64,000 nucleotides of DNA, taken from NCBI RefSeq assembly GCF_014041935.1, contig NZ_CP059491.1, positions 1,240,001-1,304,000 on the forward strand. The letters are read 5' to 3'. The translations under genes and the position numbers were made by a program. The stretch comes from Gordonia jinghuaiqii. GTDB lineage: Bacteria; Actinomycetota; Actinomycetes; Mycobacteriales; Mycobacteriaceae. The notes beneath the pieces were generated by a model that made no database searches, was not told the DNA's origin, and saw only the letters and a list, made by a program, of their open reading frames with translations. Shown piece after piece: positions 5,184-23,233 of this stretch. Position 1 is the stretch's first letter; each line of letters begins with the position of its first letter.

Positions 5184-6529
5184 GACGTCACCCGCGCATG
5201 CTGGGCCAGCTTGTGCAGCCACATCTCGAAGCGTTCGACGGCCGCGTCGGCGCCGAGGACCTCGTGCGAGTAGGCGACGCCCGCCGCTCCCATCGCGCGA
5301 GCGGCGGCGGTGTCGGTGGCGACGCGGGTGATGGCGGCGACCAGTGCCGACGGATCACCGGCGGGCACGACGACCCCGGCGCCGGACCGGCGGACCTCAC
5401 CGGCGGTGATGCCGTCGTCGGCGACCGCGGCCACCACCGGCAGGCCGTAGCTGAAGTAGGTGGTGAGCTTGCTCGGCAACGACATCTCCACCACGCCGGG
5501 CTTCTCGTTGACCACCAGCACATCCGCGGCCGACAGCATCAGGTGGAACTCGTGGTCGGGCAGTGAGTCGACAAAGGTGATGGCCGCACAGTCCCCGGCC
5601 CGCTCCTCCAGTTGCCGACGCTGATTTCCGTTGCCCAGCAGGTAGATGTGCAGCTTCTGCGCCGACGATCCACCCCGGGCGCCGGCGACTTTCGCGGCGT
5701 CGACGAGGTTCTCCAGACCCTGCTTGAGACCCATGTTGCCCGCGTGGACCGCCACGATCGCGTCGGCGGGGATGCCGAGCTGTTCGCGCGCGGAGTCGCG
5801 GTCGATCCGCGGCGGATGGACCACCTGCGTCCAGTTGCGCACATGCGTCACCACGTCGGGATTCACCCCGAGACGGTCGACGATGATCTCGCCGAAGCGC
5901 GGATGCACGACGGCGACCTCGTCGGCCGCACACAGCGCGAACCTCTCCAGCCTGCCGACCAGCGTGCGACTCACCGACCCGCCGGAGGCGGCTTCGCTGA
6001 CCGCCTGGCTGTACAGGTCGTGCACCCACACACCCATCGGCGACAGACGGCGGCGGCCCACCTTGCGGCGCATCATCACCATCGCCGACGCGATGAGCGG
6101 CGGGCTGGCCATGACGGTGACGGCCTCCGGCCGCAGGTGAGCGGCGATGGCCCGCATACCGAATTCGAGTTCCATCCGCGACCGCGGAATCATCGCCGCA
6201 CCTGCGGGAATGCTGTGCGGCACCCGCACGACGATCACACCGTGATCGACGACGGTCGAGGTGTAGTCCGACATCTCGCCGTCGAGATGCCACTGCGGAT
6301 AGTGCGGGTACCCGGTGATGACCCGGACGCTCCACCCACGGGCCGCGAGCCGGCGCGTGATGTCGGTGACGTAGGGCGCGATTCCGGTGACCTCGGGGGC
6401 GTAGTTGATGGCGATGAAGTCCACGCACCGGCGGCGGGACGGCCCGAGCCGGGGCCCGGCGACATCGCTCACCGGCCCGAGCGGCCGGACGGTTGGATAG
6501 GATGGCGAACGTGTTAGCTCAGTTGTCAT
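5180..6529 (-). CDS. WbuB/WcaI-like family 4 glycosyltransferase
   Basis: 449 residues from the ATG at 6529, with GAAAGG about a dozen bases upstream. The characteristic N-terminal motif NYAPEVTGIAPYVTDI of WbuB/WcaI-type fucosyl- or N-acetylfucosaminyl-transferases begins near residue 40, so the first ~35 residues are an unusual extension and an internal GTG start is possible. The C-terminal half has the GT-B donor site (VEMSLPSKLTTYFSYGLPVVA). A fucose-type donor fits the adjacent gmd/fcl pair. The 5' end overlaps the 5' end of the antisense acyltransferase by 28 bp. Stop overlaps the WcaF-like start. Confidence 0.83.
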   Translation of the reverse strand: MTTELTRSPSYPTVRPLGPVSDVAGPRLGPSRRRCVDFIAINYAPEVTGIAPYVTDITRRLAARGWSVRVITGYPHYPQWHLDGEMSDYTSTVVDHGVIVVRVPHSIPAGAAMIPRSRMELEFGMRAIAAHLRPEAVTVMASPPLIASAMVMMRRKVGRRRLSPMGVWVHDLYSQAVSEAASGGSVSRTLVGRLERFALCAADEVAVVHPRFGEIIVDRLGVNPDVVTHVRNWTQVVHPPRIDRDSAREQLGIPADAIVAVHAGNMGLKQGLENLVDAAKVAGARGGSSAQKLHIYLLGNGNQRRQLEERAGDCAAITFVDSLPDHEFHLMLSAADVLVVNEKPGVVEMSLPSKLTTYFSYGLPVVAAVADDGITAGEVRRSGAGVVVPAGDPSALVAAITRVATDTAAARAMGAAGVAYSHEVLGADAAVERFEMWLHKLAQHARVTS

Positions 6530-6981
6530 CGCTGGCTTGGCCTTTCGTGATGCGCGCGATCCGGCTGGTCTTTGTGCCGAATGCGGTGCGGCTGGCGGTA
6601 CTTCGAGCGTGGGGTGCACAGATCGAGCGGGGCGTTCTGATGAGGCCCCGGGTGACGGTGACCTGGCCCGGCCGGCTCGTGATCGGCGCGGACTCGTGGA
6701 TCGGTGAAGCGGTGACGCTCGACAACGCGGGGCCGATACGGATCGGTGCCGACGTCGTCGTGTCCCAGTCGGCGACACTGCGCTCGCCGGCCGGGACCGG
6801 TGAGCTCGTCGTCGACGACGGAGCGTGGATCACGTTGCGGGCCACAGTTACCGGTCCCGTCACCATCGGGCGAGGGGCGGTCGTCGGCGCCGCCGCGGAG
6901 GTTCGCGGCGACGTCGCCCCGCGCACGGTGGTGGTCAGTACGACGGTCATCCCGGACGCCTCAGACCCGGACAACATCTGA
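6502..6981 (+). CDS. Hexapeptide-repeat acyltransferase, antisense within the operon
   Basis: 159 residues from the ATG at 6502; a TTG at 6493 in the same frame is possible. An N-terminal amphipathic stretch (VMRAIRLVFVPNAVRLAVLRAWGA) is followed by imperfect hexapeptide repeats (IGADVVVSQSATL, VTIGRGAVVGAAAEV) of a left-handed beta helix. It looks like the acyltransferases that decorate surface polysaccharides, shorter than WcaF. It is the only rightward gene between fcl and the WbuB-like gene and overlaps both (28 bp at its 5' end, 21 bp at its 3' end). Transcription of the leftward operon must therefore run through it in antisense. No clear upstream promoter seen. Confidence 0.7.
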   Translation: MANVLAQLSSLAWPFVMRAIRLVFVPNAVRLAVLRAWGAQIERGVLMRPRVTVTWPGRLVIGADSWIGEAVTLDNAGPIRIGADVVVSQSATLRSPAGTGELVVDDGAWITLRATVTGPVTIGRGAVVGAAAEVRGDVAPRTVVVSTTVIPDASDPDNI

Positions 6982-7932
6982 CGCCTCCCGGTACCACTGG
7001 ACAACCTGCGCGACGCCCTCCTCGAGGGCGATGGTGGGTCGCCAGCCGAGTTCACGAATGGTGCTGACATCGAGCAGTTTCCGTGGCGTGCCGTCGGGTT
7101 TGCTGTGGTCCCAGTGCACCTCGCCGTCGTAGCCCACGGAGTCGGCGACGATGGCCGCGATCTCGGCGATCGTGTGGTCGACGCCGGTTCCGATGTTGAC
7201 CTGTTGCGGGCCGTCGTAGTGCTCGAGGAGGACCATGCAGGCCTCCGCCATGTCGTCGGCGTGCAGGAGTTCGCGTCGCGGAGTGCCGGTGCCCCAGTTG
7301 GTCACGCTCGGCGCGGCCCCCCGGCGCGCCGATTCGTAGCGTCGGATCATCGCCGGCAACAGGTGACCGGTGTCGTCGGAGAAGTTGTCGGCGGGCCCGT
7401 AGAGGTTGGTCGGCATCGCCGAGATCCACGGCAACCCGTGCTGCCGGCGCGTGGCCTGGACCTGCATGATGCCCGCGATCTTGGCGATGGCGTAGGCATC
7501 GTTGGTCGACTCCAGCGGGCCGGTGAGCAGCGAGTCTTCGCGGATCGGCTGTTCGGCGAACTTGGGGTAGATGCACGACGACCCGAGGAACAGCAGACGC
7601 TGGACGCCGTGCGCGGCAGCGGCGTCGAGCACGTTGACCTGAATCCGCAGGTTCTCCGACAGGAAGTCCAGCGGCCAGGTGTTGTTCGCGGCGATCCCGC
7701 CGACCTTCGCGGCGGCGAGGATCACGATGTCGGGCTGTGCCTCGGCGAAGAACGCGAAGGTGCTGTGCCGATCGCGGAGGTCGAGATGACGGCTCGTCCG
7801 GCCGACAACGTCGTGGATCCCGCGGCGTTGCAGCGCGCGTACCAGCGCGGAACCGGCGAGACCGCGATGCCCGGCGACGTACACGGTCGACGACCGCCCG
7901 AGTGTTCCCTGCCCCCAACGCGATTCGGTCAT
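6961..7932 (-). CDS. fcl: GDP-L-fucose synthase
   Basis: 323 residues from the ATG at 7932 (ATGA overlap with the gmd stop). Extended SDR: the Rossmann motif appears as [11 protein letters not shown] near residue 20, and LGSSCIYP and the YAIAKIAG catalytic Tyr-Lys motif follow. It catalyses epimerisation and NADPH reduction of GDP-4-keto-6-deoxy-D-mannose to GDP-L-fucose in the cytoplasm. The length is usual for the family (about 310-325). Coupling to gmd gives the complete two-step route from GDP-mannose. The last 21 bp overlap the antisense acyltransferase. Confidence 0.93.
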
Positions 7933-8960
7933 GACGCGCGGCTCCAGGTGACCAGGCGTGGTGTGTCGATCCATTCGGTGCCCTCGCACTGGAGGGCGGC
8001 GATGTCGGCGTCGACCATGATGCGGGCGAGTTCGGGTGCCCGGACCCCGGCCCGCCACCCCAGCTCCAGTTCGGCCTTCGACGCATCGCCGATCAGCGAG
8101 TCGACCTCGGTGGGGCGCAGGTAACGCTCGTCGAAGGAGACGTGATCGTGCCAGTCCAGACCGGCGTGATCGAAGGCGTGCTCGAGGAAGTCGCGGACGG
8201 TGAACGGCACGCCGGTGGCGAGCACATAGTCCTGCGGCTCGTCGGCCTGCAGCATCCGCCACATGCCTTCGACGTACTCGGGGGCGTAACCCCAGTCGCG
8301 CACGGCGTCGAGGTTGCCCATGTAGAGGTCCTTCTGGACCCCGGCCTTGATGCGAGCCACCGCACGAGTGATCTTGCGGGTCACGAATGTTTCACCGCGA
8401 CGGGGTGATTCGTGATTGAAGAGGATGCCGTTGACCGCGAACAGTCCGTAGGCCTCGCGGTAGTTGCGGGTCACCCAGTAGGAGTAGACCTTCGCCGCAC
8501 CGTAGGGCGAGCGCGGGTAGAACAGGGTGTCCTCGTTCTGCGGCGGCGGTGACGCGCCGAACATCTCCGAGCTCGACGCCTGGTAGAACCGGCAGTTGAG
8601 GCCGGCCTGACGCACGGCCTCCAGCAGGCGGACCGACCCGATGCCGGTGGTGTCACCGGTGTGTTCGGGCTCGTCGAAGCTGACCCGCACATGCGACTGG
8701 GCGGCCAGGTTGTAGACCTCGTCCGGGCCGATCGACGCCAGTAGCGTGACCAGGCGAGCGCCGTCGCTGAGGTCGCCGTAGTGCAGGAACAGCCGGGCGA
8801 ACGGGTCGTGCGGGTCCTGGTAGAGGTGATCGATCCGTCCGGTGTTGAACGACGACGACCGGCGGATCAGGCCGTGCACTTCATAACCCTTGGACAGCAG
8901 CAGTTCGGCGAGGTAGGAGCCGTCCTGACCGGTGATCCCGGTGATCAAAGCCTTCTTCAT
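7929..8960 (-). CDS. gmd: GDP-mannose 4,6-dehydratase
   Basis: 343 residues starting at ATG 8960 with GGAG upstream. It begins with the NADP-binding [16 protein letters not shown] motif of Gmd, has the [15 protein letters not shown] segment that binds NADP, and the catalytic [18 protein letters not shown] Tyr-Lys pair appears as [14 protein letters not shown]. It dehydrates GDP-D-mannose to GDP-4-keto-6-deoxy-D-mannose, the substrate of the next gene. Family length is about 340-375. It lies 75 bp downstream of the sugar transferase gene and is probably co-transcribed with it. Confidence 0.95.
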
Positions 8961-10556: not shown

Positions 10557-11381
10557 GTACTCCCCCCTGAGTAGATCCAAGAGGGACGGTTCCGCGAGTG
10601 TCTTTGGTTCCTGCCCCCTTGGCAATTGGGACAGTACAGATGATTTCGCCGCATTTACACACACGTATAGACCTGTTGGATCGGCGGGACTACAGGCGAT
10701 TGTTGGTGGCGGCGGCCTCCTACTCATGAATGGCTCGGTTGAACACCTGAGTGTTTTCCTGCCAGATCGGTCAAATGCCATTGAGGGCCGAAAAGCGCTG
10801 TATCCGACGATTGTTGTGAGTTCTTCCGTAAAGCCGGACGGTCGTGTAAGTCGCCTGAATTAGACAACGTGCGATGTCATGCATACCCGCTGGTGGCAGC
10901 CCTTTTCGCTGTGAGCTGCGGCGATGGTGGGCGAATGTGGCCCGGGGGTGCGATCAGGTCGGCGTGGCCAGGTCGTAATCCTCGCTTAGGGGTTGCGGGT
11001 TGACAATCTCTGCTTGTTGATGGCCGTTTTGTCTACTGACCACTTTATGTTGTCGGTCGATGAAACACGGTTCGACGACTCCGCTTCTGTGCCTTGGGTA
11101 TGCGCTCCAAAAGGCGAACAATTGGCGTGAAGTGGTTCGTCGGACCGTCGTGAATGATGCGTTCGAGCCCGGCGTCGACCGGCCGCGGATATGTCTCAGA
11201 TTTGCACCCTGTTCGCGTGTCTAAGTAGGGGCCGCACCGTGTTGGGCGTGACTTCGGGGCCGCCCTGGGTGCGAGGCACGCCGATTCCCGCCGTGAGGGG
11301 CGATGAACGAGAATTTGTCATCGTTTCAGTGTCTAATGACTCCCGAAGGGGTTGGGACGACATTTTGAAGGCGGTAGTCAA
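10557..11381. other. 825-bp gene-free divergent regulatory region
   Basis: No convincing gene between the leftward exopolysaccharide operon and the rightward SQD1-BcsB-GT2 operon. The sequence is visibly richer in A and T than the flanking genes. A TTGACA hexamer stands at 11000-11005 without a clear -10 partner. Short open frames (such as 11191-11385) lack actinobacterial codon bias and homology I can recognise. The region probably carries both divergent promoters and long leaders. I see no riboswitch fold I can name. Confidence 0.5.
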
Positions 11382-12575
11382 GTGAAGATTGTGGTTGTCG
11401 GTGGCGATGGGTTCTGCGGATGGCCGAGTGCTCTGCACCTCTCCAGTTCAGGACACGAGGTGGTGATCGTCGACAGCCTGGTCCGTCGACAGATCGACGA
11501 CGAGCTCGGTGTCCAGTCGCTCACCCCGATCGCGGATATCGCTCAGCGACTGGACTGCTGGCGCGAGGTCACCGGGCAGTCCATCGACTTCATCCAGCTC
11601 GACGTGGCGCACGACTATGACGGGCTCCTCGCAGTCCTGCGTCACCATGATCCCGAAGCGATCGTGCACTTCGGCGAGCAACGGGCCGCCCCGTACTCCA
11701 TGAAAGACAGTGCGCACAAGCGGTACACCGTCGACAACAACGTCAACGCGACCCACAACATCCTGGCCGCGATCGTCGAATGCGAGTCCGATGCGCATCT
11801 GGTGCACCTGGGCACCATGGGTGTGTACGGATACGACACCGCCCCGTTCAATCTTCCGGAGGGATATCTGACGGTCAGCTTTCCCGACCGCCACGGTGAA
11901 CCCGTCGTCCGCGAGATCCTCTACCCGACACGCCCGGGCAGCGTCTACCACCTGACGAAGTCGATGGATCAGCTGCTCTTCCAGTTCTATGCGCGCAACG
12001 ACGGCGTTCGCATCACCGATCTGCATCAGGGGATCGTGTGGGGCACCCAGACCGAGGAGACCAGACTCGACGACCGGCTGGTGAATCGATTCGACTACGA
12101 CGGCGACTTCGGGACGGTGCTCAACCGCTTCCTGATGCAGGCAGCGATCGGTTATCCGTTGACGGTGCACGGCACCGGCGGCCAGACGCGTGCGTTCATC
12201 AATCTCCAGGACACGGTCCGATGTATCCGGCTAGCCGTGGAGTCCGTCGACCAGGTCCGAGACGGGCGGGTCCGCATCATGAACCAGATCGCCGAGACCC
12301 ACCGCGTGCGTGACCTTGCGCAGCTGCTGCAGCGGTTGGTCGGTGCCGAGGTCGAGTACGTGGGCAACCCCCGCGCCGAGAGCGACGAGAACGACCTGGC
12401 CGCGGACAACGACCAGCTCGTCGCGCTGGGATTCGCACCGATCCTGCTGGAAGAGGGGCTGTTACAGGAGTCGGTGGAGGTCGCCACGAAGTACGCCGAG
12501 CGCTGCGACCTCTTTCGGATTCCGTCCGTGTCGTTCTGGAACCGTGATCGCCGGATCGCGGTCACCCGTTCATGA
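11382..12575 (+). CDS. SQD1-family NAD-dependent epimerase (UDP-sulfoquinovose synthase-like)
   Basis: 397 residues from GTG 11382 with GAAGG about ten bases upstream. Extended SDR: VVVGGDGFCGWPSALHL is the dinucleotide-binding loop, typical of SQD1. The catalytic YHLTK follows, and RFDYDGDFGTVLNRF near residue 250 is a hallmark of SQD1/Agl3 proteins. Family members add sulfite to UDP-glucose to give UDP-sulfoquinovose, using bound NAD. The start of a BcsB-like gene overlaps its stop as ATGA. Since a processive glycosyltransferase follows, I infer the product feeds a polymer rather than sulfolipid. Other nucleotide-sugar epimerase roles remain possible. Confidence 0.82.
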   Translation: MKIVVVGGDGFCGWPSALHLSSSGHEVVIVDSLVRRQIDDELGVQSLTPIADIAQRLDCWREVTGQSIDFIQLDVAHDYDGLLAVLRHHDPEAIVHFGEQRAAPYSMKDSAHKRYTVDNNVNATHNILAAIVECESDAHLVHLGTMGVYGYDTAPFNLPEGYLTVSFPDRHGEPVVREILYPTRPGSVYHLTKSMDQLLFQFYARNDGVRITDLHQGIVWGTQTEETRLDDRLVNRFDYDGDFGTVLNRFLMQAAIGYPLTVHGTGGQTRAFINLQDTVRCIRLAVESVDQVRDGRVRIMNQIAETHRVRDLAQLLQRLVGAEVEYVGNPRAESDENDLAADNDQLVALGFAPILLEEGLLQESVEVATKYAERCDLFRIPSVSFWNRDRRIAVTRS

Positions 12576-14446
12576 CACACGAGGACCCCGAATCCACACG
12601 CGCCACGTGGCTGCCGCGTCGGGCACTGCTGTTCTTCGCGCTCGTCGCCGTACTGGTACTGGTGTTCGTGTGGCTGCGGCCGAACTGGTTCATCCCGGCG
12701 AGCGGCGGCGACGGTCCGACGGCCACCGCAGGAACCGACTTCGTGCAGACGCTGTCGACCGCGGGGTCGGGCGATGATGTGGTCCTCAGCGACGACAACA
12801 CGACCTCGTCGTCGTTCACCTTCACCCGCCCGCAGGATGCGCGGGTGACGGACACCAGACTGATTCTCTCCGGTCGCTCACAGGCCGAGGTGTCCCGGCC
12901 GGTCTTTCTCAAGGTGTTCATCGACGGCGCCATGCGACACGTCGAGCGCCTCGGTGACGGCAAACGCGAGCTCGATATCGAGGTCGCGATTCCGCAGCGC
13001 GCCGTCGAGGACAATGCGATCGACGTCCAGGTGCGTCTGAGTGGGGCAAGCGGTGACGAGCAGTGTGTGCCCGACCGGGAACTGGGCGCGCTGGTGGTCC
13101 TCGACGCCCGCGGCACCCGCGTGACGGGGGATCTCGACTCGCCGCTGGAGAGTGTTCGGGACGTCGTGACCGGTCTCGGTCAGCGAGTGACGCTGAGAAT
13201 CGTCCCACCAGAAGGAGACTCGTCCGGTGAGCTCGCCCGTGGATGGATCGAGACCGCCACCCGGGTCGGGGTCGCGTTGACCCGCGAGGGTTACGAGGTC
13301 CGGGTCGTCGACGCCTCCGGTGACGTGCGGGACGGCAACAGCACGATCCTGATCGGTCCGGTCACCGCGCTGGCGGGGCTGGGATGGGAGCCCACCGATG
13401 GCGCCACCGGGAGCATCCTGACCGGACGCCTCGGCGATCGCAGCGTACTCGCCGTGGTCGGGACGTCGGGCGACGTCACCGTGCCGTTCCGGGCCGGAGG
13501 TGCCGACGTCATCGCCGACGCGGCGTTCTCCACCCCGCGCACCCAGGAGACGGAACCGCGGCGTGGCTCGGTGATGTCGCTCGCTGAGCTGGGACTCGAC
13601 ACCTCGGCGGTCCAGGTGACGCGGTCGCGCGCGTGGCGGGTGGCGTACTCGTTGGCCGACCTGCCCGGCGGGCGGGCACCGCAATCGGCACGCCTGGGTT
13701 TCCAGGTGCCGCCGGCACCGCCCGGCTCCCGCTGGCTGACCCAGATCCAACTCAACGGACAGCTCGTGGCGTCTCGGGTCCTGACGGCCCCGGGCACCAC
13801 CGACTGGGTGGACGCGCCGCTGCCCGCCGCCGCGACACAGGTGCGCAATCAGCTGACCATCACGGTGTCGCGGGACCGGGACATCGCGGGATGTCAGGTC
13901 CGCGAGGCGCCGTACTCCGTTGCACTGTCGCCCGATTCGGCACTGGTGGGCCGCGCGGAGGGCGCGGGATTCACCGCTCTCCCGGCGGCATTCGCGTCGG
14001 GTTTCGAGACAGCCCTGCCGGCGGTGGCGGCGCGTAACCCGGCGCAGACCGTGTCGGCGCTGGTTCCTGCGCTGGCGGAATTCTCCGGGCTCTACGGATC
14101 GCTCGAGTTCGTGTGGGAGCGTACGCCGGACGGGCGGCCGTTCGTGCTCCTGGGGGCGATGCCGATCGCCGGTATCGCGGCGCCGGTGGCACTTTCGGGT
14201 GATCGCCTGGAGGCGGCCGGCGTCGACGTCACGTCGATGAGCAACGGACTGGTCCTGCAGACGGCTGCGACGCAAAGCGGTGCAACGGGTTTGTTGATCA
14301 CCCCGGTGGGGGATCCCGCAGATGTGTTGCTCCCGCCACTGGGACGTGAGGCGGCGCTGATCGTCCCCACCGGTGGCCGGGCACTGGTGGTCGACGAGGC
14401 CGGGCGTGTGGTTCCGCACCCGCCCGAGCGAACACCACCGCCGTGA
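12572..14446 (+). CDS. BcsB-like membrane-anchored polysaccharide synthase partner
   Basis: 624 residues. One transmembrane helix near residues 17-35 places the rest outside the membrane. The large ectodomain alternates beta-sandwich-like segments: a first with CVPDRELGALVVLD (the family's conserved Cys and aromatic/Asp region), and a later one with CQVREAPYSV. These resemble the carbohydrate-binding and ferredoxin-like domains of BcsB, the periplasmic subunit that receives the glucan from BcsA. Similarity is at the level of layout and short motifs, so the call is tentative. Coupled by four-base overlaps to the epimerase before and the glycosyltransferase after. Confidence 0.6.
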   Translation: MTHEDPESTRATWLPRRALLFFALVAVLVLVFVWLRPNWFIPASGGDGPTATAGTDFVQTLSTAGSGDDVVLSDDNTTSSSFTFTRPQDARVTDTRLILSGRSQAEVSRPVFLKVFIDGAMRHVERLGDGKRELDIEVAIPQRAVEDNAIDVQVRLSGASGDEQCVPDRELGALVVLDARGTRVTGDLDSPLESVRDVVTGLGQRVTLRIVPPEGDSSGELARGWIETATRVGVALTREGYEVRVVDASGDVRDGNSTILIGPVTALAGLGWEPTDGATGSILTGRLGDRSVLAVVGTSGDVTVPFRAGGADVIADAAFSTPRTQETEPRRGSVMSLAELGLDTSAVQVTRSRAWRVAYSLADLPGGRAPQSARLGFQVPPAPPGSRWLTQIQLNGQLVASRVLTAPGTTDWVDAPLPAAATQVRNQLTITVSRDRDIAGCQVREAPYSVALSPDSALVGRAEGAGFTALPAAFASGFETALPAVAARNPAQTVSALVPALAEFSGLYGSLEFVWERTPDGRPFVLLGAMPIAGIAAPVALSGDRLEAAGVDVTSMSNGLVLQTAATQSGATGLLITPVGDPADVLLPPLGREAALIVPTGGRALVVDEAGRVVPHPPERTPPP

Positions 14447-16308
14447 CCGCTGAACCGGCCCGCATCCCGGAGGTCGAGGCGGCCAAGGAACATTTCCGGT
14501 CGGTCGACAGCACGCCGGTACGCTACGCCCGGCCGGAACCGGCCGCGCGGGTCAACGGTTTCCTGCTGGCCTTCGCGGGGTGCTCGTTGATCGTGCAGCT
14601 CACGTTCACCGTGCTCGCCAACACGAGAGTGGGCAACGGGAACAGGGATCTGGTCTTCTTCACCGGCGACGGGCTCTACTCGCTGATGCCGGTCCGGTTG
14701 TTCCTGCTCACGTTCTTCATCGTCTTCGCGTTCTGGATCCACTCGAACCTGTGGCGTCGCCTGCTGATCGCCGTCGAACTCGTCGCAGGTGTGCTGATCA
14801 GTTCCCTGCTCATCGATTTCGCCGCGCTGATGGTGGGCAGGTTCACCTCGGTCACCATCGAGGTGTTCGCCCAGCAGGTCCTGACGGCGCTGCTGGCATT
14901 GGTGCTGTTCCCGATCGTGTTGTGCACCAATGCGGTTCTGCCGCCGGCTGGTCCGCTCCCGAAAGCCGCTCGGCAGAAACGAATTCGTTGGCACAGCTGG
15001 GTGCGGCTGGTGATACCGCTCGGGGTCGCCTTCGCCGTGGCGACGTGGGTGGAAGTGCACTGGGTGGACCAGATCGGCTGGATGCGTTCGGCGGCGTTGC
15101 TCGGCGGCGTCGGGCCGGGAGTGTTCCTGGCGCAGCAGGCGTTCATCATCCAGGTGGCGCTCATCGGCCTGGTGCTGGTCACCCGCTCCCGCCGGCGCGG
15201 CATGGATTTCGCTCCCGATCTCGCGATCCTGGTGCCCGCCCACAACGAGGCACACTCGATCGCCGACACCATCGCCGCCGCGGGGGAGGCTGCGCGCCGG
15301 TACGCCGGGAAGGTGCGCATCTACGTGGTCGACAACCTGTCGACCGACGACACGATCGCCGTGGCGCGCGCGGCCATCGCCGCCAATACCGACCTCGTCG
15401 GCGAGGTCCTCGAATGCCGCGAGCCGGGCAAGGCGATCGCCCTCAACAGCGGAATCGCGCAGATCACCGAGGACTTCCTCGTCCGGATCGACGCGGACAC
15501 GATCATCGGCCCGAGCTGTCTGGCCGTCTCCATGCGGCACCTCGCCGATCCCGACGTCGGAGCCGTCGGTGGACTACCGCTGCCGACCGAGCGCCGGACC
15601 TACATCGATCGGGTGCGCCTCATCGAGGTGTTGCTGCGTCACGCGTTCTATCAGGTCGGGCTCAACGGCTTCGACGGCGTCATGGGTGTGCCGGGCATGC
15701 TGACGGTCTATCGCCGTGCTGCGCTGGACGCCGCGGGTCCGATCGTGCAGGGCATGAACGGTGAGGACACCGACATCTGTCTGCGCATCAGCGCGGCGGG
15801 GTACCGCGTGATCGCCGACCCGGCGGTCGTCTACTGGAGCGAGACCCCGCAGAGCTGGGCCCACCTGCGCGAGCAACGCACGCGCTGGTTCCGCAGCATC
15901 TACCACGTCGCCGGTCACAACCGGAAGATGCTGCTCAACACCCATTCGATGGCCGGCGCGGTCACCCTTCCGTTCCAGCTCGCCAGTGCCGCGCGACGTG
16001 CGATGTTCGCGCCGCTGCTCGTGGCCGCCACGATCGCGCTCCTCGTCTTCGGCCCGACATTCCCGGGTCTGCGCTGGGTGCCGGTCATCGCCACGATTCT
16101 CGGTCTGCCGTTACTGGTCGCGATCCTGGTGTGCATGCTGGCGAGACAATGGCGCGCCCTGCTCTACATCCCGGAGTACCTGACATTCCGGATCATCCGG
16201 AGTTGGTTCACGCTCGGCGCCGCGATGACACTCGTGTTCCCGCCGCTGGAACCGCGGTTTCGGTGGGGGCGGGCTGAAAGTGTGTCGGCGGGGGAGAAAA
16301 GGCCGTAG
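14443..16308 (+). CDS. BcsA-like processive family 2 glycosyltransferase
   Basis: 621 residues from GTG 14443 (GTGA overlap). Four or more membrane segments precede the GT-A domain, which starts near residue 255 (LAILVPAHNEAHSI). The processive-synthase residues are present: Asp in DNLSTDDT, RIDADT, NGEDTD and finally QRTRW, equivalent to QxxRW of cellulose, chitin and hyaluronan synthases. Three to four membrane segments follow. It should polymerise a beta-linked sugar on the inner face and export it. No PilZ domain is seen. The polymer is unknown; the upstream SQD1-like gene hints at a sulfo-sugar or modified hexose. Confidence 0.85.
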   Translation: MTAEPARIPEVEAAKEHFRSVDSTPVRYARPEPAARVNGFLLAFAGCSLIVQLTFTVLANTRVGNGNRDLVFFTGDGLYSLMPVRLFLLTFFIVFAFWIHSNLWRRLLIAVELVAGVLISSLLIDFAALMVGRFTSVTIEVFAQQVLTALLALVLFPIVLCTNAVLPPAGPLPKAARQKRIRWHSWVRLVIPLGVAFAVATWVEVHWVDQIGWMRSAALLGGVGPGVFLAQQAFIIQVALIGLVLVTRSRRRGMDFAPDLAILVPAHNEAHSIADTIAAAGEAARRYAGKVRIYVVDNLSTDDTIAVARAAIAANTDLVGEVLECREPGKAIALNSGIAQITEDFLVRIDADTIIGPSCLAVSMRHLADPDVGAVGGLPLPTERRTYIDRVRLIEVLLRHAFYQVGLNGFDGVMGVPGMLTVYRRAALDAAGPIVQGMNGEDTDICLRISAAGYRVIADPAVVYWSETPQSWAHLREQRTRWFRSIYHVAGHNRKMLLNTHSMAGAVTLPFQLASAARRAMFAPLLVAATIALLVFGPTFPGLRWVPVIATILGLPLLVAILVCMLARQWRALLYIPEYLTFRIIRSWFTLGAAMTLVFPPLEPRFRWGRAESVSAGEKRP

Positions 16309-16348
16309 TGCCCCACCAGGGTCGAACCTGGGACCTGCGGATCAAAAG
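16309..16348. repeat. attR-like partial copy of the tRNA-Lys 3' end
   Basis: Begins TGCCCCACCAGG and continues through the T-arm to the anticodon side. Against the intact tRNA-Lys at 20502-20543 it lacks one C in the acceptor stem and one C in the T-loop region and has one T-to-C change near the anticodon. It cannot fold into a complete tRNA. It directly follows the TAG of the glycosyltransferase. Confidence 0.7.
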
Positions 16349-16362
16349 ACAGAATCCGCCCA

Positions 16363-17196
16363 CTACCGCCGTGACCCGCGCCGCGACGACGCCGATTGTG
16401 GCTGTTCAAGCCGATGCAGCGTAATGGTTCTGGCGGCCGCGCGAGCGACGTAGTCCTCGATCGGTTCGAGACGGGACGGCACGATGGCGGGGGCGCGGCT
16501 TTTGTCTCCCAGGATGTCATCGTCGGTGCGGCGGTTTTCGGCGCCCGTCCATCGGAAGTAGACCAACCCGTCGCTGCGATCGACGACGATCGTGCCGGTG
16601 ATGCCGGACGTGTTGCTGTTGTGGAGCGAGGAGACCGAACAGATCGACTGAGCGATGTAGTACGCGGTGAACTCGAGCGAATCGCTGCGATCCGACCAGA
16701 AGACGGCCTTGCTGCGGAGGCGTTTCTCGGCGTTCCGGGGCGGCTTGATCTCGCGGGAGAACGGGCGCTCGATCCGGCCGACGTCGTTCATCCCGCCGTC
16801 GCCGTGCACGCCCGGCCGGCGGAACTCGATCACCTCGGTCCAGAAGAAGTCGCCGTCGGAGTTGATCGAGTTGATCAAGCGGTGAAACGGGCCGTACTGC
16901 TCGTTCGTGAACCCGGCATCGATCCTGCCGCCGATCCAGATGAGTTGTTCATGCGTGGTGCGCAGAAAACTCTTGCTGCTCAGCTTGCTCTTCTTGGGTG
17001 TGATGCCTTCCGACAACAGCCTCGCGTACACCACCTGCAGAGGCGCGCGGATGGCCTCGATGAAGTGGAGGGTGAGTTCGCGTCGCTCCTCCCAGTCCGC
17101 GGCCGCCGAGCGTTCTACCGCCGCCGCCTGCTGGTCCCGCTCCGTCCGGAAGCGGTCGGCGGCGCCGCCGGCAACGTCGTCGAATCCGAAAGTCAT
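16363..17196 (-). CDS. Island paralogue 5 of 5 (unknown family, 277 aa)
   Basis: I do not recognise this protein. It starts at ATG 17196 with GGAGG just upstream, overlapping the end of the previous gene's signals. The N-terminal 65 residues are predicted helical and charged, ending in PLQVVYARLLSEGI. The middle is the most divergent of the five and lacks the WYDE block. It keeps the strand-like motif IVVDRSDGLVYFRW at residues 203-216 and the C-terminal helix DYVARAAARTI at 248-258. The tail is basic (SRRGSRR). No signal peptide or membrane segment. Last gene of the coupled operon. Role unknown. Confidence 0.8.
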   Translation of the reverse strand: MTFGFDDVAGGAADRFRTERDQQAAAVERSAAADWEERRELTLHFIEAIRAPLQVVYARLLSEGITPKKSKLSSKSFLRTTHEQLIWIGGRIDAGFTNEQYGPFHRLINSINSDGDFFWTEVIEFRRPGVHGDGGMNDVGRIERPFSREIKPPRNAEKRLRSKAVFWSDRSDSLEFTAYYIAQSICSVSSLHNSNTSGITGTIVVDRSDGLVYFRWTGAENRRTDDDILGDKSRAPAIVPSRLEPIEDYVARAAARTITLHRLEQPQSASSRRGSRR

Positions 17197-17200
17197 TGCC

Positions 17201-18004
17201 CTACCTCCGATATCGTGACCGGCGGACGTCATCGATCGCCAACTCGCAGGCGATGATCCGGGCCACGTAGTCGTCGGTCGACTCGATCCAGGTGTGCGGA
17301 GCGATCTGCGTACCCACTTGCGGGACCTCCTCGAAGTGGACGCCCGGGACGCTCACGAGGACGCCGCGAAGACGGTCGTAGCTCCACGCGATGTACGTCT
17401 GACCGGTGTCGGTGTCGAGGAAGAGGTTTGCCGCGTCGGTGGATGTACAGGGAAGGTCGCGCCCCCTGGACCGGACGGCGGCGAGCGAGTCCGCCGTAGA
17501 CCCGTACGCCCAGTCGGTGATCGTCAGCTCCCGCAACTCCGACTCGTCGTACCACCGGAACATGCCCGACGCGTCCGGTTTCGCGGTCGGCGGCGGCATC
17601 AGGGGAGTGTCGACACTTCCGTTTCTGCGCAGCTCCTCGGCTCGTCCCTGCCAGTAGGTGAGTTCGATCGTCGACGACAGCAGACCGAACCGGTGGAGGT
17701 ACTGGTGTCGGCGGGTGAAGGGGCCGAATGTGAACGGCTGCACGGTGCCAGGCACTCCGGTGGTGTCACGCAGCGCGAGGACGTTGCGGCGATCACCGAT
17801 CCGCCCGATCTTCTCGGCAGACAGCTGAGAGTATGCCTGCCGCCCCAGCGGCTCCACCTGCTGGACGAATGCCCGCGCCGTGACCGTGGCCTCGTCACTC
17901 GCTCGACGAAGGGCCTTCGCCTTGGCATTCGTGCCCTGAGCGACCTCGGTGAGGAACCCGTCGATCTTGCGGTTGATCGCCATCGCCAGGCGCTCGTCGA
18001 TCAC
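17201..18004 (-). CDS. Island paralogue 4 of 5 (unknown family, 267 aa)
   Basis: No family recognised. GTG start at 18004 overlaps the preceding stop as GTGA. Layout: helical N-terminus to about residue 66 (VEPLGRQAYSQLSAEKI), a variable centre, then the shared block MFRWYDESELREL at 148-160, the LFLDTDTGQTYIAW motif at 194-207 and the terminal helix YVARIIACEL at 246-255. With the next gene upstream it defines the signature used to relate all five. No secretion signal or membrane helix. The Asp-Thr-Gly-x-x-Tyr strand might be a sheet core rather than an active site; I see no catalytic signature. Confidence 0.82.
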   Translation of the reverse strand: MIDERLAMAINRKIDGFLTEVAQGTNAKAKALRRASDEATVTARAFVQQVEPLGRQAYSQLSAEKIGRIGDRRNVLALRDTTGVPGTVQPFTFGPFTRRHQYLHRFGLLSSTIELTYWQGRAEELRRNGSVDTPLMPPPTAKPDASGMFRWYDESELRELTITDWAYGSTADSLAAVRSRGRDLPCTSTDAANLFLDTDTGQTYIAWSYDRLRGVLVSVPGVHFEEVPQVGTQIAPHTWIESTDDYVARIIACELAIDDVRRSRYRR

Positions 18005-18726
18005 CGTTTCGCCCTTTCGGCCGCAATGACCTCGCGGGCGAGAATACGCCCGTAGTACGAGGGCAGAGATTCGAAATGGTAGTCCGACGAACCGATCTGG
18101 CGGCCGACGCGGAACTCATCGGACCGGCGGAAGTTCCAGACGTACCCGGTCCGGCCGATGTCGGTGGCCACGACGACGTTGGCCAAGTTCACGAACCGGC
18201 TGACTTCGCCGTCGCCGGCTGTGTGGCGGGCGACCAGATCGGGGAGTCCGATGTTGAGCGGCGGGATCGAGGGCCGGGCGAATTCGATGATGGCGTCGGG
18301 GTCGTACCACGAGGCTCTGTAGTTGCTCGTGATCGCCTTCTTCGGAACCACCAGCCGTGGGTTCCGGTCCCACCGGCGATTGCGGTCCAGAGAAGCAACC
18401 TCCACGATCACTTTCCGGTGTGCGCAGATGAACCCGTTGGGGTGCACCAGCATCTCGCTACTCGTGTGCTCCAACGGGCCCAACCTGGGGTTGTCGGTCA
18501 TCTCACCCCACTTCCAGGCAGTCGAATTCCGGTTGAGTGGTAGAACGGCCTGGGCAAGCCGACGACCTTTGAGGTTCGGGTCGGTCGGGTACGCCAGGTT
18601 GAGGTCGAAGAGGTGCTTGCGCAGGTGAAGACCGATGGCGCAGATCTCGGCGACGTACGACGCGTAGGCGGCGTCGGTCCACGTCAGGTGCTGCGGCGTC
18701 CCGGCCTTCGGGCCGAACGTGCTCAT
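18001..18726 (-). CDS. Island paralogue 3 of 5 (unknown family, 241 aa)
   Basis: The shortest of the five and the most shifted: the N-terminal helix is brief (TDAAYASYVAEICAIGLHLRKHLFDL) and lacks the E/Q-rich first helix of the others. The rest keeps the family order: SWYDPDAI at residues 139-146, VVVATDIGRTGYVW at 184-197 and YYGRILAREVI at 224-234. ATG at 18726 shares one base with the upstream stop (TGATG). The open frame extends much further upstream, but that part overlaps paralogue 2 and has arginine/proline-rich shadow composition. Function unknown. Confidence 0.8.
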   Translation of the reverse strand: MSTFGPKAGTPQHLTWTDAAYASYVAEICAIGLHLRKHLFDLNLAYPTDPNLKGRRLAQAVLPLNRNSTAWKWGEMTDNPRLGPLEHTSSEMLVHPNGFICAHRKVIVEVASLDRNRRWDRNPRLVVPKKAITSNYRASWYDPDAIIEFARPSIPPLNIGLPDLVARHTAGDGEVSRFVNLANVVVATDIGRTGYVWNFRRSDEFRVGRQIGSSDYHFESLPSYYGRILAREVIAAERAKR

Positions 18727-19514
18727 CAGCGACTCCCTCTGCCGGACAACACGATCTTGCGGGCAACGAGCCGTTGCACATAGGCCTCGAGCGATTCGAT
18801 GTGGCGCCCTTGGAAAGGAATCCCCGGCCGGATCGGCTCCATACGCTCGTTCCCGACCCCGGGGACCACGTCGAGTTTGGGCATGTCGTAGTCGGTCCAG
18901 AGGACGTGGACGTCGCCGGTCGACTCGTCGACCAGAATCTTCTTTGCCAAGTGACGTTCGGTGGCCTGGCCCAGGCTGGGGACAGTGCAGGCTTGGAAGG
19001 CGATCTCGCGAGCCTGGACTTCGACGGCATCCTCCAGCCGGTACCAGCGCATCCCACCGCGAACATTGGGGTCGCTCTGCGCGTACTTGGGTGGAACAAG
19101 ACTGTTGAAGACCGGGACGACGTCCTTGTCCTCCTGCTTCATGGTGCGCACATCGGGAGTGATGAAGAATCGGCCGCTCGAGGTGATGTACATCCCGATC
19201 TGGAGGAACGGGCCGAACATCTTGGCCTGCTGTCCCCATGACTTCGTGTCGTCGATGGTGCTGATCACCGGTTCGGTGGCCGTGTTGAACATCCCTTTGT
19301 TTCCGGTGGGAAGGCGACGGGCCGGGAAACCCTCTGACTGCAAGCGGGCGAACGCCGCGGCGAACAACGGCGTGGCCACTGTCACCACATGTCTGGCAGC
19401 CTCGGCGCCCAACGTGCGGCTCTCTCTCACGCGGGTGGAGTGCTCGGCGGCGGCACCGCGGAGACGGGCAACCCCGGCGTGAAAGGCGTCGTCGAACTCT
19501 CGCGTGATACTCAC
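18726..19514 (-). CDS. Island paralogue 2 of 5 (unknown family, 262 aa)
   Basis: GTG start at 19514 overlapping the upstream stop (GTGA). Helical N-terminus, FDDAFHAGVARLRGAAAEHS, then ATPLFAAAFARLQSEGFPARRL, closely matching the layout of paralogues 1 and 5. The central block reads GMRWYRLEDA at 154-163, so the usual WYDE Asp-Glu is replaced. ILVDESTGDVHVLW stands at 193-206 and AYVQRLVARKIV near 244-255. Soluble, no signal peptide. Divergence is high but the motif order and spacing are the same, so I read it as an ancient tandem duplicate. Role not known. Confidence 0.82.
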   Translation of the reverse strand: MSITREFDDAFHAGVARLRGAAAEHSTRVRESRTLGAEAARHVVTVATPLFAAAFARLQSEGFPARRLPTGNKGMFNTATEPVISTIDDTKSWGQQAKMFGPFLQIGMYITSSGRFFITPDVRTMKQEDKDVVPVFNSLVPPKYAQSDPNVRGGMRWYRLEDAVEVQAREIAFQACTVPSLGQATERHLAKKILVDESTGDVHVLWTDYDMPKLDVVPGVGNERMEPIRPGIPFQGRHIESLEAYVQRLVARKIVLSGRGSR

Positions 19515-20272
19515 GGGCCGACCCGCCGTTCCTGCAACACAACCTCGTGCGCGACAAGGCGCGTCAGATACGCGTGCAGGGTTTCCACGCGGAGATCGTC
19601 GGCAAGGTAGTCGCCGATGGCCCCTTTCGACGCCCCGCCGTCCAGGAACTGCCACGCCACATACGTTGTGTCGGAATCGAAATCGACGTGAACGAACCCA
19701 TCGTTGTCGGTGGCGGGGCGTCGCTCGGGGGCGAGGATGTCGCTGAGCGGGCCGCCGGACAGTGCGCGGTAGGTCCGCGTGAACTCGTGTCGCAGACCCG
19801 CCTCGTCATACCAGGTGAACAGGCCGTCGCTGGACGGCTGCACACCACGTGGGGGCTGGGGCGGCGGTTCTCCGATACCCCCGCCGCGCCGGTACCTCTC
19901 TGCTTCGCCGGAGCGGTAACGCAGGCAATCGCGGTGGATCAGCAACCCGCTGGCATGGAGGAATCTGAGATCGGTCAGAAAGAACGTTCCGCGGGCCCAC
20001 GCGCCGGGATCCTTGACCGTGCCCGACGGTGACAGTCTGATGTAGCGGGCCCGAGGGTCGTGCCCGCTCGGGTCGCCCGAGCGCACCGGCAATCCCCGCC
20101 GAGCCAGCACCGAGAAGGCCTCGGCTCCCATCGGCACGACGTGCCGGAAATACTCGGTCGCCACGGCCGCAGATGTCCTGCGCCGGCTACCGATCGCATC
20201 GGCCTGCTGCGCGCGATGCTGCGACGCCGCCCGGAGCATCGCGTCGACGCCTGCATTGAAATCGGCGCTCAT
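19511..20272 (-). CDS. Island paralogue 1 of 5 (unknown family, 253 aa)
   Basis: First gene of the island operon, from ATG 20272. Helical first 60 residues (RHVVPMGAEAFSVLARRGLP), a proline-rich hinge near 135-145 (EPPPQPPRG), then LFTWYDEAGLR at 151-161, VDFDSDTTYVAW at 196-207 and YLTRLVAHEVV at 235-245. No match to a family I can name, and no membrane or export signal. The ribosome site is weak, but a 12-codon open frame ends on its start codon (see 20269-20307). All four following genes overlap by one to four bases or abut, which suggests fixed stoichiometry. Confidence 0.82.
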   Translation of the reverse strand: MSADFNAGVDAMLRAASQHRAQQADAIGSRRRTSAAVATEYFRHVVPMGAEAFSVLARRGLPVRSGDPSGHDPRARYIRLSPSGTVKDPGAWARGTFFLTDLRFLHASGLLIHRDCLRYRSGEAERYRRGGGIGEPPPQPPRGVQPSSDGLFTWYDEAGLRHEFTRTYRALSGGPLSDILAPERRPATDNDGFVHVDFDSDTTYVAWQFLDGGASKGAIGDYLADDLRVETLHAYLTRLVAHEVVLQERRVGP

Positions 20273-20307
20273 GCGGGTCTCGCTACGCTCGAGGAGAAGA
20301 CGGTCAT
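20269..20307 (-). other. Possible 12-codon leader peptide upstream of the island operon
   Basis: ATG at 20307, preceded by GCGGGA, encodes MTVFSSSVARPA and its TGA overlaps the ATG of paralogue 1. The same junction style is used throughout the operon, so this could be a translated leader that couples initiation. Too short to judge by composition. Confidence 0.25.
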
Positions 20308-20501
20308 GAGGTCCCGCTGAACAGTTGCGCCACGCCGAATTCCCCCGCCCGTGCGAAGTCCGGCAGATCAGCCGGACAGCGGAACTATAGTGCGCAAACC
20401 GGTCATGCGGGGGTGGTTCACGGAGCAGGTTCGCCTTGACGGCGCGGTGCTCGTGGCGGGGAAGAGGCGGGCGGCTCTGTGATCACGAGCCGCCGTGCTG
20501 G

Positions 20502-20574
20502 TGCCCCCACCAGGGCTCGAACCTGGGACCTGCGGATTAAAAGTCCGTAGCTCTACCAACTGAGCTATAGGGGC
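20502..20574 (-). tRNA. tRNA-Lys (anticodon TTT)
   Basis: 73 bases, full cloverleaf: acceptor GCCCCTA pairs with TGGGGGC with discriminator A, D-arm GCTCAGTTGGTAGAGC, anticodon loop with TTT, T-arm CCAGGTTCGAGCCCTGG. CCA is not encoded. The 3' half is repeated in direct orientation at 16309-16348, marking this gene as the integration site of the neighbouring island. The element leaves the tRNA intact. Confidence 0.97.
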
Positions 20575-21566: not shown

Positions 21567-22634
21567 ATGAGAACTCGCACCACCTCGGTGGTCGTTCGGA
21601 GTGTGTACGGCACCGCGGCGGTCGAGTGGTTCCTGATCATCGCGATCGCCACGATCCTCATCACCCGGCTCTATCTTCAGCTGACGGGGTACCCGCAGAT
21701 CGGCAGCGGCACCCTGCACATCGCGCATGCGCTGTGGGGCGGCGCGGCGATGATGCTGGCGCTGGTCACCGGATGGCTCTTCCTCGGGGCGACGGCACGG
21801 GTGGTCGCGATTGTGCTGGGCGGCATCGGGTTCGGGTTGTTCCTCGACGAGGTCGGCAAGTTCGTCACCCGCGACAACGACTATTTCTACGGCCCGTCGG
21901 CCGAGATCATGTACGTGCTCGTCGTCCTGGTGCTGCTGATCAGCCGGATCGTCCGAGATGTCAAGCGCCCGACCGGCGTCGAAGCTCTCGCCAACGCCGC
22001 GGTGATCGCCGCCGACGGTGTGGCGCACGGCCTGCCGGAGCGTCGTCGACGCCAGGCCGAGGAGTTCCTCGAACTCGCCGGCGTCAAAGGGCTCGACGCG
22101 GAGACGATCGGCCACGTCCGGGCCCTCCTCGAATCGAGTGAGGGCACACCCGACCGCCTGATGAGGCTGCGCGACCGGGCGGTCGCGCTGATCCCGGGCT
22201 TCTTCCGCAGCCCGCGCTGGGTCTCGATCGTCGGCTGGGGACTGGTCGTGGCGTCGGTGGGCACGGTCGTCGTCGGGGCGCTCAGCTTCTACTTCACCGC
22301 CGAGCGCAGCGACGAACTCGACATCTACATCGAACTGTCCAGCAACCACACCGCGACGTGGATTCTGTTCCTCAGCGGCATCGTCACCGTCGCGCTGGCG
22401 TTTCCGGCGATGGTCGCCCGGCACCGCGGCATCGCCGACGTGGGGCCCCTGCGGGGCCTGCGCATCGCCGCGCTGGTGTTCATGCTGTCCAACGCGCTCG
22501 TCGACTTCGCCATCGAGGGCTTCGGTGCGATCGTCAACCTCGCGATCGGACTTTTCGCCCTCAGCGTCGTGAGCTACCACCTCGGACGGGCGGTCACGGT
22601 GTCGGACGGAACGCGTGATCAACTGAGGGTGTGA
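21567..22634 (+). CDS. Polytopic membrane protein of unknown function
   Basis: 355 residues. Four hydrophobic helices lie in the first 125 residues, then a cytoplasmic charged segment (about 130-205, with [15 protein letters not shown]), then four more helices to the C-terminus. The second helix pair contains [25 protein letters not shown], a conserved-looking acidic loop. No transporter signature. The NUDIX gene begins within its last codons (GTGA overlap), so the two are probably co-expressed. I cannot assign a function. Confidence 0.8.
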
Positions 22635-23233
22635 CTCACCTGGAACGGGAAGTGGCGGCGGCACGTGTCGACAAGTTTGAGCGCCGAACGGTCGACGTCC
22701 CCGGTGCCCGGGCCGCGTCGGTGGTGCTGACCGTCGCGGAGAAGGACGGCCGGCAGGGGATCTGGCTGTGCAAACGTCCCTCGACGATGCGTCGTCATGC
22801 CGCGCAGTTCGCGCTGCCGGGTGGGCGACTCGACCCGGGTGAGGACTACATCACCGCAGGTCTACGCGAACTCGACGAGGAACTCGGCGTGCAGTTGCCG
22901 GAGAGCTCTGTCCTCGGTGCGCTCGACGACTATCCGACGCGCTCGGGTTTCGTCATCACCCCGATCGTGTGCTGGGCCGAGGAGTACCAGGAGCCGACCC
23001 CCAACCCTGACGAGGTGGCGCTGCTGTTCTTCGTGACCTTCGAGGAGCTGATGGTGGAACCCCGGTTCCTGACCATCCCGCAATCGGACAAGCCGGTGAT
23101 CCAGCTGCCGATCGTCGGCTCGCTGGTGCATGCGCCGACCGCCGCGGTGATCTACCAGTTCGCCGAGGTGGTCCTGCAGGACCGCGCCACCCGCGTCGAC
23201 GGGTTCGAGCAGCCGGTCTTCGCCTGGAAGTAG
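22631..23233 (+). CDS. NUDIX hydrolase (CoA pyrophosphatase-like)
   Basis: 200 residues from GTG 22631. The NUDIX box, GRLDPGED followed seven residues on by [11 protein letters not shown], matches G-x5-E-x7-R-E-U-x-E-E-x-G-U with all metal-binding glutamates. Upstream, [11 protein letters not shown] resembles NudL-type CoA diphosphatases, but the UPF0035 signature is not fully evident, so the substrate (CoA, ADP-ribose or dinucleotide) is open. Cytoplasmic. Translation is coupled to the preceding membrane protein. Confidence 0.85.

Follow-up and report, generated by a model that had tools for sequence, protein, structure and literature searches.

A selected operon of five ancient paralogues fills a tRNA-Lys island in Gordonia jinghuaiqii and is a candidate conflict module

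We analysed a stretch of 64,000 nucleotides from Gordonia jinghuaiqii (contig NZ_CP059491.1, positions 1,240,001 to 1,304,000; hereafter the window), in which five tandem genes, lettered A to E from left to right, lie between a tRNA-Lys gene and a decayed partial duplicate of that gene, covering the 3' half. Their proteins fell into no family that our searches could name. The same five genes occur in a second species of the genus, and comparison of the two copies showed that each gene is under purifying selection. We tentatively propose that the island is the remnant of an integrative element and that its operon encodes a conflict module made of five paralogues.

The second copy was found in one other Gordonia genome (G056, locus L012, 9230-13118). 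It consists of the same five orthologues in identical order, which bears out the guess of an earlier note, made from the letters of this DNA, that the genes form a fixed set. The genes and the two ends of the island are given below, with the identity of each protein to its orthologue and the ratio of nonsynonymous to synonymous substitution rates (dN/dS) between the window and L012; lengths are in amino acids (aa).

16311..16348, no strand: far end of the island, a decayed attachment-site-like (att-like) repeat of the tRNA-Lys 3' half; direct repeat D2, 39 columns, 94.9%, E 3e-11
16363..17196, minus strand: gene A, 277 aa, pairs with D; orthologue L012:12285-13118, identity 79.8%, dN/dS 0.32
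17201..18004, minus strand: gene B, 267 aa, pairs with E; orthologue L012:11480-12280, identity 75.6%, dN/dS 0.40
18001..18726, minus strand: gene C, 241 aa, the most divergent paralogue, with a short N terminus; orthologue L012:10755-11483, identity 75.0%, dN/dS 0.23
18726..19514, minus strand: gene D, 262 aa, pairs with A; orthologue L012:9988-10758, identity 66.5%, dN/dS 0.50
19511..20272, minus strand: gene E, 253 aa, the operon's first gene, pairs with B; orthologue L012:9230-9991, identity 68.0%, dN/dS 0.41
20499..20574, minus strand: tRNA-Lys (ttt), the insertion site, from the tRNA call

The operon is transcribed leftward throughout, in the order E, D, C, B, A, and the gene list confirmed the coordinates, strand and protein lengths (253, 262, 241, 267 and 277 aa, from E to A) that the earlier note had given. 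Its description of overlapping starts holds for three of the four junctions in the window (E/D by 4 bp, D/C by 1 bp and C/B by 4 bp) and fails for B/A, where a gap of 4 nt separates the genes. The same three junctions overlap in L012, there all by 4 bp, and the B/A gap is again 4 nt. G+C content at third codon positions (GC3) is host-like, at 0.80-0.86 in the operon and 0.81-0.89 in the host. None of the five proteins has a long hydrophobic stretch (the Kyte-Doolittle maximum over 19 residues is 1.13), and they are probably soluble and cytosolic; a rough propensity prediction suggests that they may be alpha+beta proteins.

The att-like copy sits just past the stop codon of A and matches the end of the tRNA-Lys gene at about 20505-20543. 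The two repeats are spaced 4195 bases apart and delimit an island of 4.2 kb. Because it carries small differences from the tRNA-Lys, the copy looks old. The island shows the feature that we tested for, a whole tRNA gene at one boundary with a duplicate of its 3' segment at the opposite one, and the five genes fill the space between, as the earlier note had claimed in calling them the whole content of a tRNA island. Other open reading frames (ORFs) of at least 80 aa between the repeats overlap the five genes in other frames; they were not examined singly, and no further convincing gene was seen. There was no integrase in the ORF list between the repeats or in the family searches of the five genes, searches that did not take in the overlapping ORFs of other frames.

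Homology between the window and L012 at the DNA level spans exactly the operon (window 16363-20273, identity 79.4%) and returns at the tRNA cluster. In the downstream flanks nothing significant was common to the two (best E 0.14), and upstream a 47-bp block was the sole significant match outside genes in the flanking stretches compared. This block and a dyad that overlaps it are as follows.

20360..20406, minus strand: promoter-like block that includes TATAGT at 20384-20389 and lies 88-134 nt upstream of E; 47 bp, 83% to the second species, E 9e-11
20358..20377, no strand: inverted repeat GTCCGGC-tgatct-GCCGGAC (read on the minus strand), a possible operator or 5' hairpin; the pattern is unique in the genome

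The 20-bp dyad lies just downstream of TATAGT on the minus strand, and the second species has a shorter dyad at the corresponding place. Since homology stops at the operon ends and outside them is confined to the 47-bp block, the conserved unit is, as judged from these alignments, the promoter-like block together with the five genes. In L012 the operon lies downstream of the same tRNA-Lys (6157-6230), with a nitrilase-family and a PadR-like gene between; a second att copy was not found in that locus.

For each of the five genes, none of 100 codon bootstraps gave a dN/dS of 1 or more, as expected for genes under purifying selection. Retention of all five genes together under selection was thus found, in one independent species pair. 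Between these species dN was 0.12-0.25 in the operon and 0.06-0.15 in 14 rows of flanking ORFs, whereas dS was similar in the two sets (0.37-0.70 in the operon, 0.19-0.76 in the flanking ORFs). The proteins are thus maintained, and their rate of change is probably above that of most of their neighbours.

We examined the relationship of the five proteins to one another by aligning profiles of orthologue pairs with hhalign, against 40 column-shuffled controls of which the best reached a probability of 0.6. The strongest pairs were E-B (probability 98.8, E 6e-17) and D-A (98.7, E 2.4e-16), followed by D-B (87.7, E 3.4e-6), E-C (69.6, E 4.2e-5) and C-B (63.1, E 7e-5); the remaining five pairs gave 0.1-17.4. 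By this test the five genes are, above chance, one family of ancient paralogues, with the case weakest for C, and the old duplication proposed in the earlier note is supported; the other four proteins are 16-29% identical to A. A tree of the ten proteins (the five and their orthologues) separated D and A from E, B and C with support of 100/99, in a run for which the program warns that long branches meet. Given the gene order E-D-C-B-A and the pairs E-B and D-A, the simplest history would be duplication of an ancestral two-gene block, E-D giving rise to B-A, with C added.

The order of features that the earlier note saw in all five proteins proved looser than it claimed. The C-terminal Y-x-x-R is present in five of five, and the final E of that helix motif in three. 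The W-Y block occurs in four, A having W-S instead, and the strand D-x-D-T-G-x-T-Y-x-A-W is exact in B only, the other four retaining the final W and parts of the remainder. The protein of gene C is without most of the N-terminal helix.

The full set was present in two of 59 genomes of the genus, and the same two were the only full sets among 401 genomes of the family. In the samples of the order (397 genomes) and the phylum (296) only the window's own genome matched. The same held for the class (394), apart from short matches in two genomes (E 0.0037 and 0.009; 53-55 positions) that contain stops and that we judged to be spurious, chance matches. These draws are overlapping samples, in which the rows shown scored 6 candidates per genome (family, order and class) or 8 (phylum); G056 was recovered under this setting in the family sample, and the order, class and phylum samples may not include it. 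In two other genera 0 of 138 and 0 of 133 genomes matched, in samples that hold no genome known to match. Outside the genus there was therefore no credible set in the samples searched, from family to phylum and in the two other genera. Nor did any solitary member turn up in the genomes sampled; a single-gene homologue without the tandem arrangement was the outcome that the earlier note had named as telling against its own proposal. Outside cellular genomes, tblastn of the five proteins against 50,697 phage records gave nothing better than E 0.5; in plasmids, where A, B and E were the queries, no match was better than 0.7. Scans of viral contigs with all five genes, a search that reaches close relatives only, found no relative, and neither did scans of genome contigs with A and C by a pattern search that is likewise confined to close relatives and may leave out near records.

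Searches for known families were equally unproductive. The five proteins had no match at a useful level in Pfam, PHROGs or PADLOC, the five orthologues had none in Pfam or PADLOC, and all ten had none in NCBIfam or Pfam. The five gave no match to any known family of toxins, nucleases, NTPases or defence proteins, and no PADLOC model for a known anti-phage defence system was matched in that library, which dates from 2023. In Pfam at E up to 10, where filters drop most matches above about 0.1, the ten members matched no immunity family, SUKH included, and none was found in NCBIfam. The description 'unrecognised family' thus stands in Pfam, NCBIfam, PHROGs, PADLOC and the profile searches of the PDB, and profile searches did not split the five into unrelated families. 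Among the papers listed by a literature search there was no description of such a tRNA-island system in Gordonia, which does not prove that none exists.

The PDB was searched with a ten-sequence profile and three sub-profiles. The ten-sequence profile matched TRIM16, a SPRY-type structure (E 0.003 and 0.0039; 84 positions). The SPRY fold is a beta fold, and we judged the match to be chance because the sub-profiles fail to reproduce it and a rough propensity script predicts helix in part of the matched stretch. We judged likewise an apaG match of one sub-profile (E 0.074), the other two giving none; matches of one member each to CBD_PlyG, GST_N_2, DUF7096, acylphosphatase and LysX (E 0.02-0.3); and a single PHROG match (E 0.027, 33 residues). 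A SUKH-like fold, considered for the strand-W-helix C terminus, had no sequence support. A known fold might still emerge and tie the family to a known superfamily.

In one sibling (G015) a prophage-like element of 13 kb occupies the same tRNA-Lys (L057:2520-15692), bounded by a 44-bp copy at 97.7%. Its genes include a repressor, a primase-like gene and one for a tape-measure protein of 1501 aa, and a tyrosine integrase lies close to its far att copy; it is possibly a defective prophage or satellite. Phages of Mycobacterium smegmatis with tyrosine integrases use tRNA-Lys(TTT), designated attB-4, and several of them share 38-45 bp with attB, which leaves the tRNA whole, others there sharing only 9-17 bp (PMC10865867). 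The window island resembles the attB-4 cases in tRNA isotype and differs from those phages in being 4.2 kb long, with no integrase, no recognised phage gene and a decayed far att copy. From the G015 element and these phages it is plausible that tRNA-Lys is a working integration site, at which the window island would be a survivor without integrase. Remnants of the five genes at the same tRNA were not found in 12 sibling stretches by tblastn at E 1e-3, where the G005 stretch covers only 3.5 kb and the G030 stretch 7.8 kb.

Between the conserved genes and the island the window holds a second variable module (10655-16308) with an NAD-dependent epimerase, a 624-aa protein that had no Pfam match at E 1e-5, and a family 2 glycosyltransferase, relatives of which (about 50% identical) occur in six of 58 other genomes of the genus. 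Four siblings (L058-L061) have 1.3-4.5 kb of different content between the conserved genes and tRNA-Lys. None of the three window proteins had a tblastn match at E 1e-3 in 19.9 kb of L012; therefore the neighbouring genes of the two copies differ. At the same hotspot L012 carries, at 6605-8876, the nitrilase-family gene, whose protein has a long N-terminal region without a Pfam match, and the PadR-like gene. Both were rejected as parts of the system. At E 1e-10 the nitrilase (L012 6605-8233) is found in one of 59 genomes of the genus, not the window's own, and the PadR-like gene (L012 8268-8876) has a Pfam score of 23.4, below the cut-off of 27. Relatives of the nitrilase occur in 15 plasmid records, of which three neighbourhoods were inspected and had nothing in common with the operon; among the 10 plasmid records listed, relatives are annotated as NUDIX-domain proteins.

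We suggest that long ago an integrative element entered tRNA-Lys(TTT), that its integrase has since gone from the window, and that what remains is a self-contained operon under a promoter of its own. Coupled translation would produce five cytosolic paralogues, most likely assembled into a single hetero-oligomer that has E/B-type, D/A-type and C positions, a reading that we base on the soluble proteins, the coupled translation and the retention of each gene. That the five form one complex we hold to be somewhat probable. The patchy presence, the mobile-element site and the fast change of the proteins point to a conflict role as the most likely one, such as protection from phages or competing elements, in which the proteins might for instance bind some component of a phage or plasmid. 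A defence function seems to us a strong possibility that falls short of being probable. In its boldest form, which we regard as rather unlikely, the operon would encode an obligate five-part hetero-oligomer, derived from a two-gene unit and acting as a compact (4 kb) anti-phage or anti-element machine without known effector domains. Anti-phage defence cargo is found in tRNA hotspots, and the operon is like such cargo in its patchy occurrence, its own promoter-like block and its location in a mobile-element hotspot; it is unlike it in having no recognised effector or sensor domain and in consisting solely of five paralogues.

The main rival is that the genes form a homogeneous polyimmunity locus, in which each protein alone neutralises a different incoming toxin and the locus's own toxin is not nearby. 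According to PMC3482391, such loci (SUKH, Imm11 and others) are tandem distant paralogues in one operon near a recombination site, without a recognised toxin, and which genes they contain, and how many, differs considerably even among strains of a single species. The operon shares much of this, being a single locus in the genome with tandem distant paralogues, no recognised toxin gene and a recombination site beside it; the low identities to A and the soluble, possibly alpha+beta proteins would fit as well. It departs from polyimmunity loci, as that paper presents them, in that two species have the same number of genes in the same order, each with its orthologue, and most starts are overlapping and coupled, and further in that none of the ten members matched an immunity family in the Pfam searches up to E 10 and no solitary member was seen in the genomes sampled. 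Because the set is fixed between species we disfavour polyimmunity, and give it a minor, if real, chance.

Alternatively, the operon might encode an accessory metabolic, envelope or regulatory complex with no conflict role, inherited vertically and lost in most species. The host-like GC3, a dS inside the flanking range and the seemingly polysaccharide-related far-side genes of both species would all suit this. It requires the genes to have been lost across most of the genus; the att-like repeat is the mark of an insertion, and the neighbours differ, the three window genes being unmatched in L012; on balance we find it unlikely. That the five are what a phage or satellite formerly in tRNA-Lys left behind of its structural or assembly genes, a reading that the prophage-like element at the same site in G015 would favour, is very improbable, given that PHROGs gave no meaningful match, that the phage records and the viral contigs (close relatives only) gave no relative, and that all five genes remain under selection without other phage genes.

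Several points weigh against our main reading of the operon. The Pfam, NCBIfam, PHROGs, PADLOC and PDB profile searches identified neither a catalytic motif nor a known defence family or fold. C is tied to the family weakly, its top hhalign probability being the 69.6 with E. Co-retention is one independent comparison, because only two genomes carry the set. The apparent speed of protein change is tempered by the flanking rows themselves: each of the 14 was included only where at least one genome gave a dN/dS below 0.5, a filter that favours low dN, some of them overlap on opposite strands, so that not all can be genes, and one flanking gene (22631-23233) has a dN of 0.235, within the operon range. 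Simple vertical inheritance with loss elsewhere is possible, because dS in the operon is comparable with that of the flanking ORFs. Finally, genes that look polysaccharide-related lie on the far side in both species (the epimerase and glycosyltransferase in the window; L012 13350-17505 by eye), neighbours that would fit a role in the envelope as well.

Many new defence and conflict modules have been found through a recognisable enzyme. A selected mobile-island operon of five ancient paralogues without a known domain is a candidate of the type that can escape enzyme-led searches, and its small size allows it to be cloned and tested whole. If the five proteins do form one complex, the operon would be a natural case of duplication turning a simple pair into a multi-part machine.

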